This document shows, piece by piece, positions 1,840-14,313 of a stretch of 33,185 bases of DNA (position 1 is its first letter; each line of letters begins with the position of its first letter). The translations under genes were made by a program, and so were the position numbers. The notes under the pieces are model-generated. The model saw nothing but the letters and a program-made list of their open reading frames with translations, was not told the DNA's origin and did not search any database. The stretch is from Flavobacteriaceae bacterium (lineage in GTDB: Bacteria; Bacteroidota; Bacteroidia; Flavobacteriales; Flavobacteriaceae): NCBI GenBank assembly GCA_002728855.1, contig PBWA01000044.1, positions 1 through 33,185 on the forward strand, read 5' to 3'.

Positions 1840-4712
1840 TTAACAAAAAGGTCGGATTCTTTTACCGTAATTATTTCTCCATATCTTTTTAGTTCATCTA
1901 AATTAAATCTTGACACATCACCAACAATAGTTATAATCATAGGTTTATTTTGTATTTCAGCTTTATAAAAATCAACAATTGATTTGAAAGAGAGGTTATT
2001 GTATTGCTCTAATAAAAGCTTATTGGGATCATCATCAAAACCCTGTCTTTTCCAGCTTTCAATCCTTTCGATTAAATTTCTAAAACTTGGCCTTGAAGTT
2101 TTAGAACTTTCAATTAAAGAAGACTTTATCATTTCCAATCGTTCTGGTTTTTCAGGCATGTTTAAAATTAGATCATTCATGACCCTAACAGATTCAATTG
2201 TTTTATCAGCTTGGCAACCCACATAACCAATGAAAGAATTATTCTTTCCTTCCATAGGAGCTAAATTGTATTGAGCGAATGTAGAATATGCTAATGATCT
2301 AAACTCTCTTATTTCTTGAAAAACGATACTTGACATATCATCTCCAAAATATGAATTAAATGCATTTGAAAAATGAGCTTTTGAATTAGATCTTTTACCC
2401 CCTTCAATATTGAAAACAATATGACTTTGAATACTTTTCTTGTTGTTTAAAATGTATATTTTATTTCGTGTTGGCTTTTGTCTATCAAAGACGACAAAGG
2501 GTTCCCTTGGCATGAGTTCTTTCTCTGTATTTAAATATTTGTCACAAAGTAATTTTAATTGGCTCAACTCTGTGTTTCCAACAAAATGAATTGTTTTTTC
2601 ATAATTTAGAATAGTCTTATAAGCACTTTCTAATCTTACTGCTTTAAGTTTTTTGATCTCTTTTTTTGTTAACTCCCTTAGTCTTGGGGCTTTATCTCCT
2701 AAGAGGGCATATTCATTGAGTGTTTGGGCTAAAAATATAGGTTGTTCTAGATTTAACTTTCTTTGAGTTTTAAATTCTTCAACTGCTTGAGATACTTTTT
2801 TCTCATCAAAGACAAGATTATTTATTAATTCTTCAGTGAGGACAAGAATTTTTTCAAGGTTTGATTCAATTCCTGAAACAATTAAAGACACATTATTTTC
2901 TGTGGCGTTAAAATAATAAGTAGATCCAAGTTGATGAAATGCTTCTTTAAGCTCAGCAACAGAGTACCTATCTGTCCCTAAAAGACTTAAATAATTGCCT
3001 AAAAATCTGATTTCAGGAATTTTATAAAGTCCGACACCAAATTTTATTTTTAGATCAAAAACATTATTGAATGGATTTTTAGTTTTTATAATTGAAATAT
3101 TATCTCCTAGATTAGCTTCCTGAGTATCAGTATTATAGTTTACGTATTTTGCCTGGTATTGAAAAGGCTTAATTTCTAAAAGTTTTTTGCTATAATTTGA
3201 ACTTGCATTAGTATTAGACATTTGAGGTTGATATCCTGGTTTATCTAACTTTTCTTTTTTTGGAGATCCCATTCTAGAATAAAAGCACAGATAATTATCT
3301 CCGAAATATTTTTTAGCAACTTGAACAATGGCATCCTTATCTATATTTTCGATGGCCTGATAATTTTCGTAATACTCTGTCCACTTTTTTTCTTGCATAA
3401 AGGCTTCTACCATTTCAAGGGCTCTACTTTCATTACTTTCCCATTTGTATGATATCTCTTTTATTTTATTAATTTTCAGGGCTTCAACGTATTGATCAGA
3501 AAACTCTCCTTTTTTTAGTTTTTCAATCTGTTCTATGATTATATTTTCAGCAGCATCTAGTTTTTGGCCTATAAGTTTAGGAATAAAATATACAGCCGTA
3601 GCTCCGTAATCAATGTTGCCAATTTCAAATAACCCAGCTTCCATTAATTTACCTTCGTCTCTAAGTTTATTTAAATATCCGGTTTCTTCGAGGTTATAAA
3701 GAGTCTTTAAAGCCATTTCAAAAATTAAATTGTCTTTATCTCCTTGTTTAGGAGACCGAAAAACAATTGCCCCAAGTTTAATGGGGGTTAATTTTTTTTC
3801 AACTAATTCTCTCCTATTAAATGGTTCTTCTAAATATTCAGGGAATTCAGGAATCTTACCTGATCTTAATTTTCCAAAGGTTTGTTCAATTAGCGGGATA
3901 ATTTTTTCAGAATTAAAATCACCAGAGAGAGATAGGACCATATTATTTGCCACATAATAAGTATTAAAAAAATCATACATTTTTTGTAATGAGGGATTTT
4001 TTAAATGCTCAACTTTTCCAAGAACAGTTTGTTGACCATAGGGATGTTTTTTGTAAACATGTTTAGCAACTTCTTCAAAAACATTTTCAAAGGGGTCATC
4101 CATTGATATATTCTTTTCCTCATAAACTGTTTCAAGCTCAGATTGGAATAACCTGAACACCGGATTTTGGAAACGATGACTATAGATTTCCAGCCATCTA
4201 TTAATTTGATTAGGAGGAAAGCTGTTGTAATATGCTGTATAATCCTCATTTGTAAATGCATTAACATCAAGTCCTCCCATTTGCTTGAGGAGTTTGTCAA
4301 GCTCATTAGGAATAGCATATTGTGAGGCTTTGATAGAAATTCTATTGATTTCTTTTTGGATTGAAGAACGCTTTTCCTGCAAATTAGTTTTAGATAAATT
4401 TTCATAAAGTTTGCTAATGCTGTCAAGATAAACTTTTTCATTTTCGTAATCGGTAGTTCCTAATTCTTGCGTTCCTTTAAACAGAACATGTTCTAGATAG
4501 TGAGCAATACCAGTTGCATCTTTTGGATCGTTTTTACCCCCAGCTTTAACTCCAACAACACCATATATATTTGAGCTTTCACGATTTTCACTAAGCATCA
4601 CCGTTAATCCATTTTCTAAAACATATTCTTTAACTTCAATTGATTGATTTGCTTTTTGACTAAAAACAAGACTTGAAAAAATCAGCAATAAAAATAATAA
4701 TGCTCTACTCAT
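1836..4712 (-). CDS. Secreted M16 family zinc metallopeptidase (insulinase/pitrilysin-like), two-domain
   Basis: This 958-residue protein starts with a signal peptide (about residues 1-18, LLFLLLIFSSLVFSQ) and so acts in the periplasm or at the outer membrane. The inverted zinc motif HxxEH is present as HYLEH at residues 71-75, and the downstream acidic ligand region SELETVYEEKN lies near 191-201. Spacing between them is longer than in insulysin because of a charged helical insert around 95-140. The C-terminal half, about 540-950, resembles the second, non-catalytic M16 domain; family members use both halves to enclose peptide substrates. It is divergent from the exchanger gene and ends in a 4-bp overlap with the upstream-convergent surface protein. 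The substrate is unknown. No TAnnTTTG promoter was found in the 86-bp upstream gap. Confidence 0.9.
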   Translation of the reverse strand: MSRALLFLLLIFSSLVFSQKANQSIEVKEYVLENGLTVMLSENRESSNIYGVVGVKAGGKNDPKDATGIAHYLEHVLFKGTQELGTTDYENEKVYLDSISKLYENLSKTNLQEKRSSIQKEINRISIKASQYAIPNELDKLLKQMGGLDVNAFTNEDYTAYYNSFPPNQINRWLEIYSHRFQNPVFRLFQSELETVYEEKNISMDDPFENVFEEVAKHVYKKHPYGQQTVLGKVEHLKNPSLQKMYDFFNTYYVANNMVLSLSGDFNSEKIIPLIEQTFGKLRSGKIPEFPEYLEEPFNRRELVEKKLTPIKLGAIVFRSPKQGDKDNLIFEMALKTLYNLEETGYLNKLRDEGKLMEAGLFEIGNIDYGATAVYFIPKLIGQKLDAAENIIIEQIEKLKKGEFSDQYVEALKINKIKEISYKWESNESRALEMVEAFMQEKKWTEYYENYQAIENIDKDAIVQVAKKYFGDNYLCFYSRMGSPKKEKLDKPGYQPQMSNTNASSNYSKKLLEIKPFQYQAKYVNYNTDTQEANLGDNISIIKTKNPFNNVFDLKIKFGVGLYKIPEIRFLGNYLSLLGTDRYSVAELKEAFHQLGSTYYFNATENNVSLIVSGIESNLEKILVLTEELINNLVFDEKKVSQAVEEFKTQRKLNLEQPIFLAQTLNEYALLGDKAPRLRELTKKEIKKLKAVRLESAYKTILNYEKTIHFVGNTELSQLKLLCDKYLNTEKELMPREPFVVFDRQKPTRNKIYILNNKKSIQSHIVFNIEGGKRSNSKAHFSNAFNSYFGDDMSSIVFQEIREFRSLAYSTFAQYNLAPMEGKNNSFIGYVGCQADKTIESVRVMNDLILNMPEKPERLEMIKSSLIESSKTSRPSFRNLIERIESWKRQGFDDDPNKLLLEQYNNLSFKSIVDFYKAEIQNKPMIITIVGDVSRFNLDELKRYGEIITVKESDLFVN

Positions 4713-10231: not shown

Positions 10232-11809
10232 TTAATTACCTGGCTGTTTCAAAATAAAGTTTTCCTTTTTTTTAGACAAATCAACCATTTCTTTTACTTC
10301 AGTTAATAATTTTTTCGCATCATATATTACGCCATTTACAATAGTATATTTTATTCCACCTACGCGAATTACTTGATTTTCATTATTAAGTTTTATCGCA
10401 CCAGTTCCATACAAAACCTTTAAATTCTTTAATGGATTTTCCTCGATAATAATAAGATCTGCTTTTTTGCCAATTTGAATAGATCCAATTTCCCGATCAA
10501 CACCAAGAGCTTCAGCTCCATTTAAAGTGGCTGCTCTTATAACTTCTAAGGGATGAAATCCAGCTTCTCTCAAAAGTTCAAGTTCTCTAATGTAACCAAA
10601 ACCATATAGTTGAAATATAAAACCAGAATCAGAACCTGCTGTTACACGCCCACCTCTATTTTTATATTCGTTTATGAAAATCATCCATAGCTTGAAATTT
10701 CTTTTCCACGCAACTTCTTGTTCAGTGCCCCAGTAATGCCAATAGGAACCATGAGAAATTTTACTTGGTTGATAAAATCTCCACAAAGATGGTAAAGTAT
10801 AATGCTCATGCCATTCAGCTCTTCTTGCTCTTTGAAGATCTCTACTTGCTTCGTAAATATTGAAAGTAGGATCAAGAGTGAAATCAAGTCTTAACAACTC
10901 ATTCATCACATTGTTCCAATGCTCTGAATAAGGTTCAGCAGCTTGTTCCCACAATTTTCCAGCTTCTTCAAAACGATGTTGTTCATTTTGGTAATTATAA
11001 TCCAGAGGATAATTCTGAATAGTTTTATCATAAAACAAGGCTTCAGGAAGACCATACCAATGTTCCATTGTTGTTAGACCAGCTCTTGCTGAATTCAAAA
11101 CATTCCATCTTGCAACACTCATTTGAGCATGATGACAGGCAGACCTTAGCCCCAGCTTTTTGTTTTCATCAAGTGCTGCTTTCATTATATGCGGTTCAGC
11201 TCCAAAAAATTTAATTCCATCAGCTCCTTTTTTTGCGTTTTCTCTAACCCATAAACGAGCATCTTCTTCAGTTTTTATAGGATTTTTGGAACCTTGACCA
11301 AATCCAGTATATGCAAAAATTCTTGGTCCAACTATCTCATTTTTTTCAACACGTTCCTTCAATTTTAATGTGTGATTCAGACCTCTTCCACTAGGCTCTC
11401 TAATAGTAGTAATTCCATGAGCTAACCAAAGTTTAAAAACGTAATCCCAATTAGCACCTTGAGAAGAACCTCCAATATGCCCATGCATGTCAATAAATCC
11501 TGGCAAAATATACATATTTGAGGCATCAATGATTTTTCCTTTTGATTTTAATTTAGGTCTTTTAGTAGAATCAATTTTTACACCGGGATAACCTACGAAA
11601 CTTATTTTTTTTATGATATTTTTTTCTATAACTATATCTACTGGTCCCCTTGGAGGTGAACCGTCTCCATTAATTAAAGTTGCACCTCTTATTATTAATT
11701 GTTCATAAGGGCCCTGTTTTGTTTCAGTATTTAATTGAGCAGATGTATTGAAGCAAAATATTAGGGCAAATAGCTGGAAGAAAATTTTTTTATAAATCAT
11801 TTTAACCAT
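10232..11809 (-). CDS. Secreted amidohydrolase-superfamily protein (metal-dependent hydrolase)
   Basis: This 525-residue protein has a signal peptide (residues about 4-24, ending in NTSAQ), so it is periplasmic or outer-membrane associated. The amidohydrolase metal sites are visible: HGH at 109-111 inside LPGFIDMHGHIG, Lys200 in DGIKFFG as a possible carboxylated bridging lysine, HH at 226-227, His250 in TMEHWYG, and the late Asp in TAGSDSG. The C-terminal KADLIII.ENPL segment closes the small beta-sandwich, as in imidazolonepropionase- and prolidase-like members. Substrate cannot be read from sequence. Translation may begin at the second ATG (11800), which gives a better signal peptide. The annotated ATG is only 7 nt from a strong hairpin, which would crowd a ribosome if the message came from upstream. 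Confidence 0.88.
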   Translation of the reverse strand: MVKMIYKKIFFQLFALIFCFNTSAQLNTETKQGPYEQLIIRGATLINGDGSPPRGPVDIVIEKNIIKKISFVGYPGVKIDSTKRPKLKSKGKIIDASNMYILPGFIDMHGHIGGSSQGANWDYVFKLWLAHGITTIREPSGRGLNHTLKLKERVEKNEIVGPRIFAYTGFGQGSKNPIKTEEDARLWVRENAKKGADGIKFFGAEPHIMKAALDENKKLGLRSACHHAQMSVARWNVLNSARAGLTTMEHWYGLPEALFYDKTIQNYPLDYNYQNEQHRFEEAGKLWEQAAEPYSEHWNNVMNELLRLDFTLDPTFNIYEASRDLQRARRAEWHEHYTLPSLWRFYQPSKISHGSYWHYWGTEQEVAWKRNFKLWMIFINEYKNRGGRVTAGSDSGFIFQLYGFGYIRELELLREAGFHPLEVIRAATLNGAEALGVDREIGSIQIGKKADLIIIEENPLKNLKVLYGTGAIKLNNENQVIRVGGIKYTIVNGVIYDAKKLLTEVKEMVDLSKKKENFILKQPGN

Positions 11810-11816
11810 AATACAA

Positions 11817-11843
11817 AATACCTTCAGATGATCTGAAGGTATT
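11817..11843 (-). terminator. Perfect 13-bp inverted repeat, probable terminator read on the minus strand
   Basis: AATACCTTCAGAT and ATCTGAAGGTATT flank a single G; a realistic hairpin has an 11-bp stem and a 5-nt loop. On the minus strand it is followed by TTTTGTATT, on the plus strand by A-rich sequence, so termination fits minus-strand transcription coming from the amt operon. It sits directly before the amidohydrolase start codon. Confidence 0.6.
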
Positions 11844-11850
11844 AAAAATA

Positions 11851-11923
11851 ATGGATTCTAAAAACAAAACAAAGTAATTAAAATCTTAACCTATGAAAAA
11901 AATGCAAAATTTTTAGAATCCAT
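11851..11923. repeat. Stem-loop with 14-bp perfect arms and a 45-nt loop
   Basis: ATGGATTCTAAAAA (11851-11864) is perfectly inverted at 11910-11923. It is separated by 7 bp from the hairpin on each side. No coding function or known RNA family was recognised. Confidence 0.6.
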
Positions 11924-11930
11924 ATTTTAT

Positions 11931-12028
11931 AAAAAGGGGAGTTAGTCATAATGTAAAGCAACATGAGTAAAGGATTGGTTTATGGCATAAATCAAAACCC
12001 AAAATACATTATAAAAACTCCCCTTTTT
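11931..12028. ncRNA. Candidate structured RNA element downstream of amt, 98 nt
   Basis: Outer arms AAAAAGGGGAGTT (11931-11943) and AACTCCCCTTTTT (12016-12028) pair over 13 bp. Inside them ATAATGTA (11948-11955) pairs with TACATTAT (12005-12012), and an apical 7-bp stem TTGGTTT/AAATCAA (11975-11981 with 11989-11995) closes a 7-nt loop. The apical stem has a G-U pair as plus-strand RNA but a mismatch as minus-strand RNA, slightly favouring the plus strand. Position, 25 bp after the amt stop, favours a 3' UTR or terminator on the minus strand. The nested pairing is seen; that it is a functional RNA is inference. Confidence 0.4.
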
Positions 12029-12053
12029 CTAGTAAACAAACCAAACAAAAAAA

Positions 12054-13292
12054 TTATAGTTGATTCAATCTAAAATCAGCATAGGCTTCCATGCTGTGTT
12101 CAGAAAGATCAAGACCTTTTTTCTCTTCTTCTTCACTTACTCTAAGCCCAGTTACTGCTTTGACAATAATGAGTAAAATAAATGAAGTAATTACACAAAA
12201 GGCACCAATTATTCCTACGCCTCCTAATTGGATAAGGAATTGATCCATACCAGCTAAGTCTCCAAAGCATCCAACTGCTAGAGTTCCCCAAATACCACAA
12301 ATTAAATGAACAGCTATTGCTCCTACTGGATCATCAAGTTTTAATTTTTCTATAAATGAAATACCTAGAACAACTAGTATCCCAGCAAAAATTCCAATTA
12401 AAATTGAATCTGTTGGAGACATTAGGTCAGCTCCAGCAGTAATTCCAACAAGACCTCCTAATACACCATTCATGAACATAGTAATATCATAATTTTTATA
12501 AAGTATACTTGCAAAAAAAGCAGCTGAGACACCTCCTGCCGCAGCAGCAAGACAAGTAGTTACCAAAGTGAGAGAAGTTAAGGTTGGATCAGCTGATAAT
12601 ACAGAACCACCATTAAAACCAAACCATCCTAGCCAAAGTATTAATACACCTGCAGCGCCTAGCGGTAGATTATGACCTGGTAGTGCTCTTGCTTTACCTT
12701 TGTCATCAAATTTTCCAATTCTTGCACCTAAAATGTAGACAGCAATCAGTGCAGCCCATCCGCCAACTGAATGTACTAAAGTGGAGCCTGCAAAATCATA
12801 AAATCCTAATCCGTCGAGAAATCCTCCTCCCCATTTCCATGATCCAACAATAGGGTAAACAAGACCAACGTATAAAATTGCAAAAAGCATAAAACCACTC
12901 AGTTTAATTCTTTCTGCTACGGCACCAGATACTATTGTTGCAGCTGTTGCAGCAAACATTCCTTGAAAAAGAAAATCTGTCCACCAAGTGTAACCTCCAT
13001 CTGCATAACTAAAGTCCATTCCACCCTCTGGAGCAGTAATCCCAAATCCTGCAAATTTTAGAACTCCCATATCTCCGTCTTCAAATCCAGGATACATGAG
13101 ATTAAATCCACCTATACAGTATATGAGTAGCCCTGTAGTTATTACAAAAAAGTTTTTAAATAAAATGTTGATAGTATTTTTCTGACGAGTTAAACCACTT
13201 TCTAAAAAAGCAAAACCCATATGCATAAAAAAGACTAAAAAGGTACAGACCATCATCCATACATTATTAATAGTAAGTATTGTAGTTTCCAT
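12054..13292 (-). CDS. amt: Ammonium transporter (Amt/MEP/Rh family)
   Basis: The 412-residue protein has eleven or so hydrophobic helices and conducts ammonium across the inner membrane. The conserved pore residues are visible: Phe gate in GMFAATAA near 111-118, first pore His in STLVHSVGGWAAL (H174), and second pore His in IAVHLICG (H329). FAFLESGLTR near 28-36 is the typical N-terminal signature. There is no cleaved signal peptide, so the N-terminus is as in shorter Amt proteins. It follows glnB by 8 bp, the classic amtB-glnB/K pairing (here with glnB first), so P-II very likely blocks this channel when nitrogen is plentiful. It is the last gene of a three-gene operon, followed by the stem-loop region. 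Confidence 0.96.
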   Translation of the reverse strand: METTILTINNVWMMVCTFLVFFMHMGFAFLESGLTRQKNTINILFKNFFVITTGLLIYCIGGFNLMYPGFEDGDMGVLKFAGFGITAPEGGMDFSYADGGYTWWTDFLFQGMFAATAATIVSGAVAERIKLSGFMLFAILYVGLVYPIVGSWKWGGGFLDGLGFYDFAGSTLVHSVGGWAALIAVYILGARIGKFDDKGKARALPGHNLPLGAAGVLILWLGWFGFNGGSVLSADPTLTSLTLVTTCLAAAAGGVSAAFFASILYKNYDITMFMNGVLGGLVGITAGADLMSPTDSILIGIFAGILVVLGISFIEKLKLDDPVGAIAVHLICGIWGTLAVGCFGDLAGMDQFLIQLGGVGIIGAFCVITSFILLIIVKAVTGLRVSEEEEKKGLDLSEHSMEAYADFRLNQL

Positions 13293-13300
13293 AATAAAAT

Positions 13301-13639
13301 TTAATTAAGTGATTTATTTCCTTTTTCTCCAGTTCTAATTCTATAGGCTTCATCCACTGGGAGTATAAAAATCTTCCCATCTCCAATGCGATCTGTTGCT
13401 CCAGAATCAATTATAGCTTTAATAGTTTTATCAACAAATGAATCTGATACAACAATTGACAAGTATCTCCTTTGGATTTCCGATGTGCTATAGGTTATTC
13501 CTCTATATACATGACCTTCTTTTTCATTTCCTATTCCTGTAACATCCCAATAACTGAAAAAATTAACTTCTACAGCATGAAGAGCATCTCTAACCTCTTC
13601 AAACTTTGATTTTCTGATGATTGCTTCAATTTTTTTCAT
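13301..13639 (-). CDS. glnB: Nitrogen regulatory P-II protein
   Basis: P-II senses 2-oxoglutarate, ATP/ADP and sometimes glutamine status and controls ammonium channels and other targets. The 112-residue length and start (MKKIEAIIRKSKFEEV) are standard. The T-loop reads TGIGNEKEGHVYRGITY; Tyr50 corresponds to the uridylylated Tyr51 of E. coli by alignment with YRGAEY, so the modification site exists, though I cannot tell whether a GlnD-type enzyme is present. The nucleotide-binding C-terminal part is GDGKIFILPVDEAYRIRTGE. It sits between the porin-like gene (14 bp) and amt (8 bp), so its main partner is almost certainly this Amt. Confidence 0.95.
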   Translation of the reverse strand: MKKIEAIIRKSKFEEVRDALHAVEVNFFSYWDVTGIGNEKEGHVYRGITYSTSEIQRRYLSIVVSDSFVDKTIKAIIDSGATDRIGDGKIFILPVDEAYRIRTGEKGNKSLN

Positions 13640-13653
13640 GATAGCTTTAAATA

Positions 13654-14313
13654 TTAAAGTGAAAATCCAAAGACAAGATACATTTGATCAGCAGAGGGAT
13701 TATAAATCAAGTTGCTTGATAAAGGCAATGAGAAGTCATCTGTTATTTTTAATTCTTTCCCATAACTTAGGGCAATTTCAATGAGCTCAAAGTCTCCAGA
13801 ACCTGTATAAAAACCATCTCCTAAGCCTAATGTAAAACCAATCTCTTCGCTAAGTGGAACACTACCAGCAATGTATGTGTCACCATCTTCAAAGAAGTAT
13901 CCTCCAGTTAAACTGACTGGTCCTAATTCTAAACCTAACATACCTTCCCAAACTCCACTATCGAAGTATTTGGTAGTACCACCAGTTGTTATATCAGGGA
14001 AAATATAGTTTGTAATTGTTACTGCAACCGGACCATATGAAAGTGATGCATATAGATCAAGTTCATCTGCTAGAGAATCATTTGCATAAGCTCCCCAGAA
14101 TCCAACTTCAAATCCGAAGTCATCTTCTTCCCCTCCTGCAGCGTAAGACATATATGGCTGAATTGAAGGACCATTTGAGTATGCGCCACCTCTCCAAACA
14201 TATCTACTCATAAAGTCTGCGCCAATATCAACTTGAGCTAACGCTTGGTTCACTGACATAATAGATATTATTGCGATTGAAAATATTTTTAATGATTTAC
14301 TGATTTTTTTCAT
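13654..14313 (-). CDS. Outer-membrane porin-like protein, resembles the TorF family
   Basis: A signal peptide (about residues 1-27, ending in NQALAQ) leads into a 190-residue mature protein rich in alternating, aromatic-rich beta strands and ending in a C-terminal Phe-Ser-Leu (YLVFGFSL), as expected of an outer-membrane barrel. The opening DIGADFMSRYVWRGGAYSNG resembles the 'YVxRGxxxSxxxPxxQ' start of TorF-type putative porins. It is the first gene of the operon with glnB and amt, which suggests a role in letting ammonium or small amines cross the outer membrane; that role is inferred only from position. A TAnnTTTG element precedes it. Confidence 0.75.
   Translation of the reverse strand: MKKISKSLKIFSIAIISIMSVNQALAQVDIGADFMSRYVWRGGAYSNGPSIQPYMSYAAGGEEDDFGFEVGFWGAYANDSLADELDLYASLSYGPVAVTITNYIFPDITTGGTTKYFDSGVWEGMLGLELGPVSLTGGYFFEDGDTYIAGSVPLSEEIGFTLGLGDGFYTGSGDFELIEIALSYGKELKITDDFSLPLSSNLIYNPSADQMYLVFGFSL

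Follow-up and report, generated by a model that had tools for sequence, protein, structure and literature searches.

The intrinsic (Rho-independent) terminators of Flavobacteriaceae, the message-stabilising hairpins or tandem terminators of 3′ untranslated regions (3′ UTRs), and the small RNAs derived from Bacteroides transcripts are the described systems closest to the region analysed here, an intergenic gap containing three hairpins (H1, H2, and H3). H1 resembles the intrinsic terminators, with its perfect, short, G/C-containing stem, its 3-nt loop, a U-rich tail, and a location between the end of a transcript and the next gene, but its tail is interrupted. Intrinsic terminator loops are usually 3-10 nt long, and those of H2 (45 nt) and H3 (72 nt) lie far outside this range, lacking the characteristic short loop, which speaks against a terminator role for these two hairpins.

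As in message-stabilising 3′-UTR hairpins and tandem terminators, several hairpins stand between a stop codon and the end of a transcript; H1, H2, and H3, however, are not copies of one repeated unit, differ in age and sequence, and have a putative function. The 3′-UTR-derived and intra-operonic small RNAs of Bacteroides (PMC7366714) are likewise structured RNAs following a coding gene, with a terminator at the end, whereas the putative RNA of the gap has no conserved seed and is not conserved outside the genus. The H1-H3 region is a known kind of thing, of which the stacking is unusual.

Three hairpins between amt and an amidohydrolase gene

The window, i.e., the whole stretch of 33,185 nucleotides that was analysed, corresponds to contig C44 in a metagenome-assembled Flavobacteriaceae genome (G000) of 1.62 Mb. 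The gap holding H1, H2, and H3 (11811-12053) is bordered on both sides by genes of the minus strand. In the order of that strand, we found a gene encoding a putative porin (13654..14313), so named in the sequence-only reading, whose product had no match at E <= 0.001 in searches of Pfam and NCBIfam; a gene encoding a glnB-type PII protein (13301..13639; PF00543); the ammonium transporter gene amt, located upstream of the gap (12054..13292; PF00909); the gap; and a gene encoding an amidohydrolase with a signal peptide (10232..11800; PF01979). The latter is co-directional and lies downstream of H1; the earlier description of the gap as the mere end of an operon had missed it. Its start is most likely the ATG at 11800, ~17 nt downstream of H1, because an in-frame upstream ATG at 11809 reads ATA in the corresponding sequence of the sister species (G001). 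The genome also encodes another Amt protein (G000:C1:14252-15454), a more distant paralogue with 46% identity.

The arms and coordinates of the three inverted repeats proved correct when re-checked. H1 (11817..11843, minus strand) is a perfect inverted repeat with 13-bp arms and a 1-nt centre, which as RNA gives a stable, short hairpin of 12 bp, including G/C pairs, with a 3-nt loop. H2 (11851..11923, minus strand) has a 14-bp stem and a 45-nt loop, and A/T pairs extend its stem into both spacers. H3 (11931..12028, minus strand; 98 nt) is characterized by a 13-bp basal stem (AAAAAGGGGAGTT), with 72 nt between its arms, followed by an 8-bp inner stem and a 9-bp apical stem, the whole being flanked by A5/U5. 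On the minus strand, the calculated stabilities of H1, H2, and H3 were -14.4, -17.1, and -29.0 kcal/mol, respectively. In the ensemble of the whole gap, all three stems formed together, with pairing probabilities near 1. The two spacers are indeed of the same length (7 bp), as had been pointed out, but they are not independent features: both are strands of the A/T-rich extension of the H2 stem, whose arms extend over 11842-11864 and 11910-11932 (87% complementary), so that the equal spacing follows from a single stem.

That three such repeats are unlikely to have arisen by chance is borne out by comparison with shuffled and genomic sequences. Relative to dinucleotide shuffles, the fold of the gap had a z-score of -6.8 on the plus strand and -7.7 on the minus strand, and none of the 200 shuffles folded equally well. 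In a background sample of 346 kb (313 kb of G000 stretches and the window; 36 kb intergenic), the gap ranked second among the 32 gaps of 120-400 nt, the only one with a stronger fold being a gap with two tRNA genes. Moreover, H1, H2, and H3 represented three of the seven intergenic perfect repeats of this sample that passed our cut-offs (arm length 11 bp or more, 3 or more G/C, and a loop no longer than 110). Intrinsic terminators were found for 10 of 256 genes in G000, compared with 0 in shuffles. Judging from these folding models, all three are real RNA hairpins. None of the families of Rfam 15 matched the gap at the gathering score, with chance-level matches alone at relaxed thresholds, and exact scans of viral contigs for the arms of H1, H2, and H3 gave no match.

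H1 and the junction in other marine Flavobacteriaceae

In 17 other marine Flavobacteriaceae, drawn from a scan for the amidohydrolase and picked because they showed the hairpin arrangement, a single short hairpin followed by a U-run occupies the same place, before the same amidohydrolase gene and after amt or the porin gene. The gap in these relatives is usually 70-100 nt long, with one hairpin (for example AACCTCCTG..CAGGAGG), a run of U6-U9, the motif TAT[AC]TT, and the ATG. Three loci (L064, L092, and L129) exhibited the same gene order without a clear hairpin, and in some other relatives the amidohydrolase gene is preceded by different genes.

Stem variation was followed over nine pairs in 19 sequences (the 17 relatives and H1 of G000 and G001); since the MAFFT alignment of the terminators misregistered the arms of the porin group, pairs were counted from hand-set arms. 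Standard pairs were present in 19 out of 19 sequences at positions 3-7, and positions 5-8 changed on both sides of the stem, with the variants TA/CG at position 5, TA/CG/TG at position 6, CG/TA/TG at position 7, and AT/TA/CG/GC at position 8. The G-U cells of the stem pair only on the amt strand. Because of the shared location and these paired changes across the 19 sequences, H1 is most simply regarded as the orthologue of the family's intrinsic terminator between amt or porin and amidohydrolase. Read on the minus strand, the gap would be the 3′ part of the amt message, terminated by H1; this view gained support from the matching terminators of the 17 genomes, their paired stem changes, and the one altered stem base of H2 in G001, which retains a pair on the minus strand only. 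The proposed covariance check had a divided outcome: relatives yielded paired changes for the H1 stem, but no further homologues of H2 or H3.

The tail that follows H1 on the minus strand (11806..11816; TTGTATTATGG) is a weak, interrupted U tract in this sequence comparison. The 3′ side of H1 reads GGUA-UUUUGUAUU, with UUUU followed by an interruption (UAUUUUGUAUU), versus U6-U9 in the relatives. Within the tail, positions 11815-11808 (TGTATTAT, compared to TATATTAT in G001 and TAT[AC]TT in the 17 relatives) resemble a -7 box, for which TAnnTTTG was used as the consensus (PMC9723704); the box reads TGTATT in G000. The position of TAT[AC]TT after the terminator suggests that the amidohydrolase gene may have its own transcript start right after the terminator. 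With a box reading TGTATT and an interrupted U tract, both signals look weakened in G000.

A conserved terminator immediately followed by TAT[AC]TT was observed upstream of the amidohydrolase gene at L067, L070, L073, L074, L081, L085, L090, L091, L096, L104, and L119; a -33 element would there fall within the terminator hairpin, as a compact overlap of terminator and promoter. At three other loci (L111, L124, and L131), the gap after an amt-like gene measures only 35 nt, so that a 14-bp hairpin (AAAACTGCAATGTG) found 56-93 nt past the stop codon of that gene already falls within the first part of the following gene.

Distribution and age of H2 and H3

In G001, which belongs to a sister species of the same genus, H1 and H2 are present and ~125 nt including H3 are absent, so that H2 follows the amt stop codon almost directly. 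One base of the H2 stem differs between the two species; in G001, the altered position pairs as G-U on the minus strand but is an A.C mismatch on the plus strand, and the H2 fold of G001 amounted to -14.9 kcal/mol on the minus strand versus -8.7 kcal/mol on the plus strand. On the minus strand, both long hairpins are followed by a U tract: H3 ends in CCCC-UUUUU (U5) and H2 in AUCCAU-UAUUUUU (UUAUUUUU), with U8 after H2 in G001.

H2 was found in the two examined species of the genus, and not in Flavobacteriaceae outside it. H3 was found as a single copy in G000 and not at all in G001, unlike a multicopy palindromic element or MITE, and the search among relatives gave no further homologue of either hairpin. 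As only two sequences are available for H2 and one for H3, covariation applies to H1 alone. From the short gaps of the relatives, a gain of H3 in G000 is favoured over a loss in G001, this comparison covering two genomes only; the genome being metagenome-assembled, an assembly error at H3 may also be involved.

In a different species, an unrelated hairpin of ~96 nt occupies the same slot at L125 (about 3779-3902), between amt and an ordinary terminator, and is absent from the close relative L085. Together, the cases of G000 and L125 indicate that long hairpins entered the slot between amt and amidohydrolase at least twice. The L125 hairpin has a second copy in the same genome (L197; G202:C33:14601-14725), 73% identical over 122 nt and located between two unrelated genes, and these two copies possibly represent a dispersed hairpin element. 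Two candidate features were rejected: a short peptide in H2 (MDSKNFAFFS), whose frame is not kept in G001, and a 12-mer (CCATAAACCAAT) that recurs in H3, in the insert of L125, and in the gap of L071, which had seemed to link the long hairpins but is a common idiom of 5′ UTRs and of a separate terminator-linked element.

We also observed a recurring element, R1, in marine Flavobacteriaceae, which often exhibits a TAnnTTTG-like box, a small hairpin (AATTCTTCA..TGAATT), a near-invariant AATTGGTTTATGGTTA, a G/C terminator hairpin, and a U run. It is located at G000:C2:36977-37049 (L196, L218) and G001:C121:6682-6758 (L219), with further loci at L174, L176, L180, L181, L186, L190, L200, L205, L206, L209, L210, and L211. 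An R1 covariance model matched both genomes of the genus, and strongly two further genomes of the family; as it was built from motif-selected sequences, matches below about 38 bits are doubtful. R1 had no Rfam match at gathering and is a candidate small RNA or leader. The R1 model did not match H3 and scored only 12.1 bits at H1 (E 0.7).

Function of the gap and competing readings

We consider it probable that the gap combines a conserved terminator, H1, with two younger hairpins, H2 and H3, in the 3′ UTR of amt, which would act as auxiliary terminators, as protectors of the 3′ end, or as both. The gap would then be the 3′ UTR of the glnB-amt message on the minus strand, in which transcription would meet H3, then H2, and then H1, the inherited stop; H2, of genus-level age, and H3, of species-level age, would have arisen later in the stretch from the amt stop codon to H1. 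The two would most likely be large-loop auxiliary terminators and/or roadblocks shielding the 3′ end of the message, and may partly compensate for H1, whose U tract is weakened. The sequences show the positions and pairing potential of the hairpins, the orthology of H1 with its covariation, the lineage distribution of H2 and H3, and the minus-strand bias of H2; that transcription stops within the gap, and that H2 and H3 aid the stop or protect the end, is what we infer. The U-rich tract after each hairpin on the minus strand and the short terminator at this junction in many relatives count in favour of this reading; the weakness of the H1 U tract relative to the U6-U9 of the relatives counts against it.

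H1 might instead be the only working part, with H2 and H3 as neutral palindromic insertions, debris of mobile or dispersed elements in a permissive 3′ UTR. We regard this as possible but rather unlikely: H3 is missing from the sister species, and the L125 hairpin, found in the same slot, absent in L085, and with a partly identical copy elsewhere, shows similar behaviour, but G000 carries H3 only once and shows no clear target duplication, and both species have retained H2 and its one-strand pairing. Since it concerns origin, neutral insertion can coexist with a function in termination or protection. An origin as invertible promoter segments (invertons) would fit inverted repeats around 45- and 72-nt spacers upstream of the gene of a secreted enzyme in Bacteroidota; with spacers this short, H2 arms unrelated to those of H3, and an H2 spacer whose orientation did not differ between the two genomes compared (one per species), we give it hardly any credence.

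The remaining readings concern the RNA itself. The hairpins precede the amidohydrolase ATG on the coding strand, and H1 ends ~17 nt before it, which would suit a regulated 5′ leader of the amidohydrolase that resembles an attenuator or riboswitch and is terminated by H1. Such a leader is improbable, given that the hairpin of the relatives is part of the transcript coming from upstream and is then followed by TAT[AC]TT, with the amidohydrolase start expected after the hairpin; moreover, the three stems form together with probabilities near 1, without a competing antiterminator fold, and no leader or riboswitch of Rfam matched. The sequence-only reading had proposed a small regulatory RNA released from the 3′ region of amt, in line with the strong fold (z -7.7) and the existence of 3′-UTR-derived small RNAs in Bacteroidota (PMC7366714). 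This proposal was left unsupported and appears very unlikely, as H3 is missing from G001, H2 is confined to the genus, no Rfam family matched, and the comparison revealed no conserved, unpaired stretch that could serve as a seed. Its more specific version, in which processing of the amt message would release H3-H2-H1 as a small RNA that responds to nitrogen, arose recently in this lineage, and targets the amidohydrolase or nitrogen genes, has an equally slim chance. An RNA read from the plus strand, the alternative raised earlier, is poorly supported: the gap is not preceded by any gene that would be read into it on the plus strand, and H2 of G001 folds better on the minus strand. The small RNA, the amidohydrolase leader, the invertons, and the plus-strand RNA are each less supported than auxiliary termination or 3′-end protection by H2 and H3.

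The H1-H3 region alone does not point to a new regulator. With its fixed gene junction, at which a conserved, covarying terminator is combined with a rapid gain of large hairpins within one genus, it provides a small, concrete case in which to study the evolution of 3′ ends in the nitrogen-uptake messages of streamlined marine bacteria.
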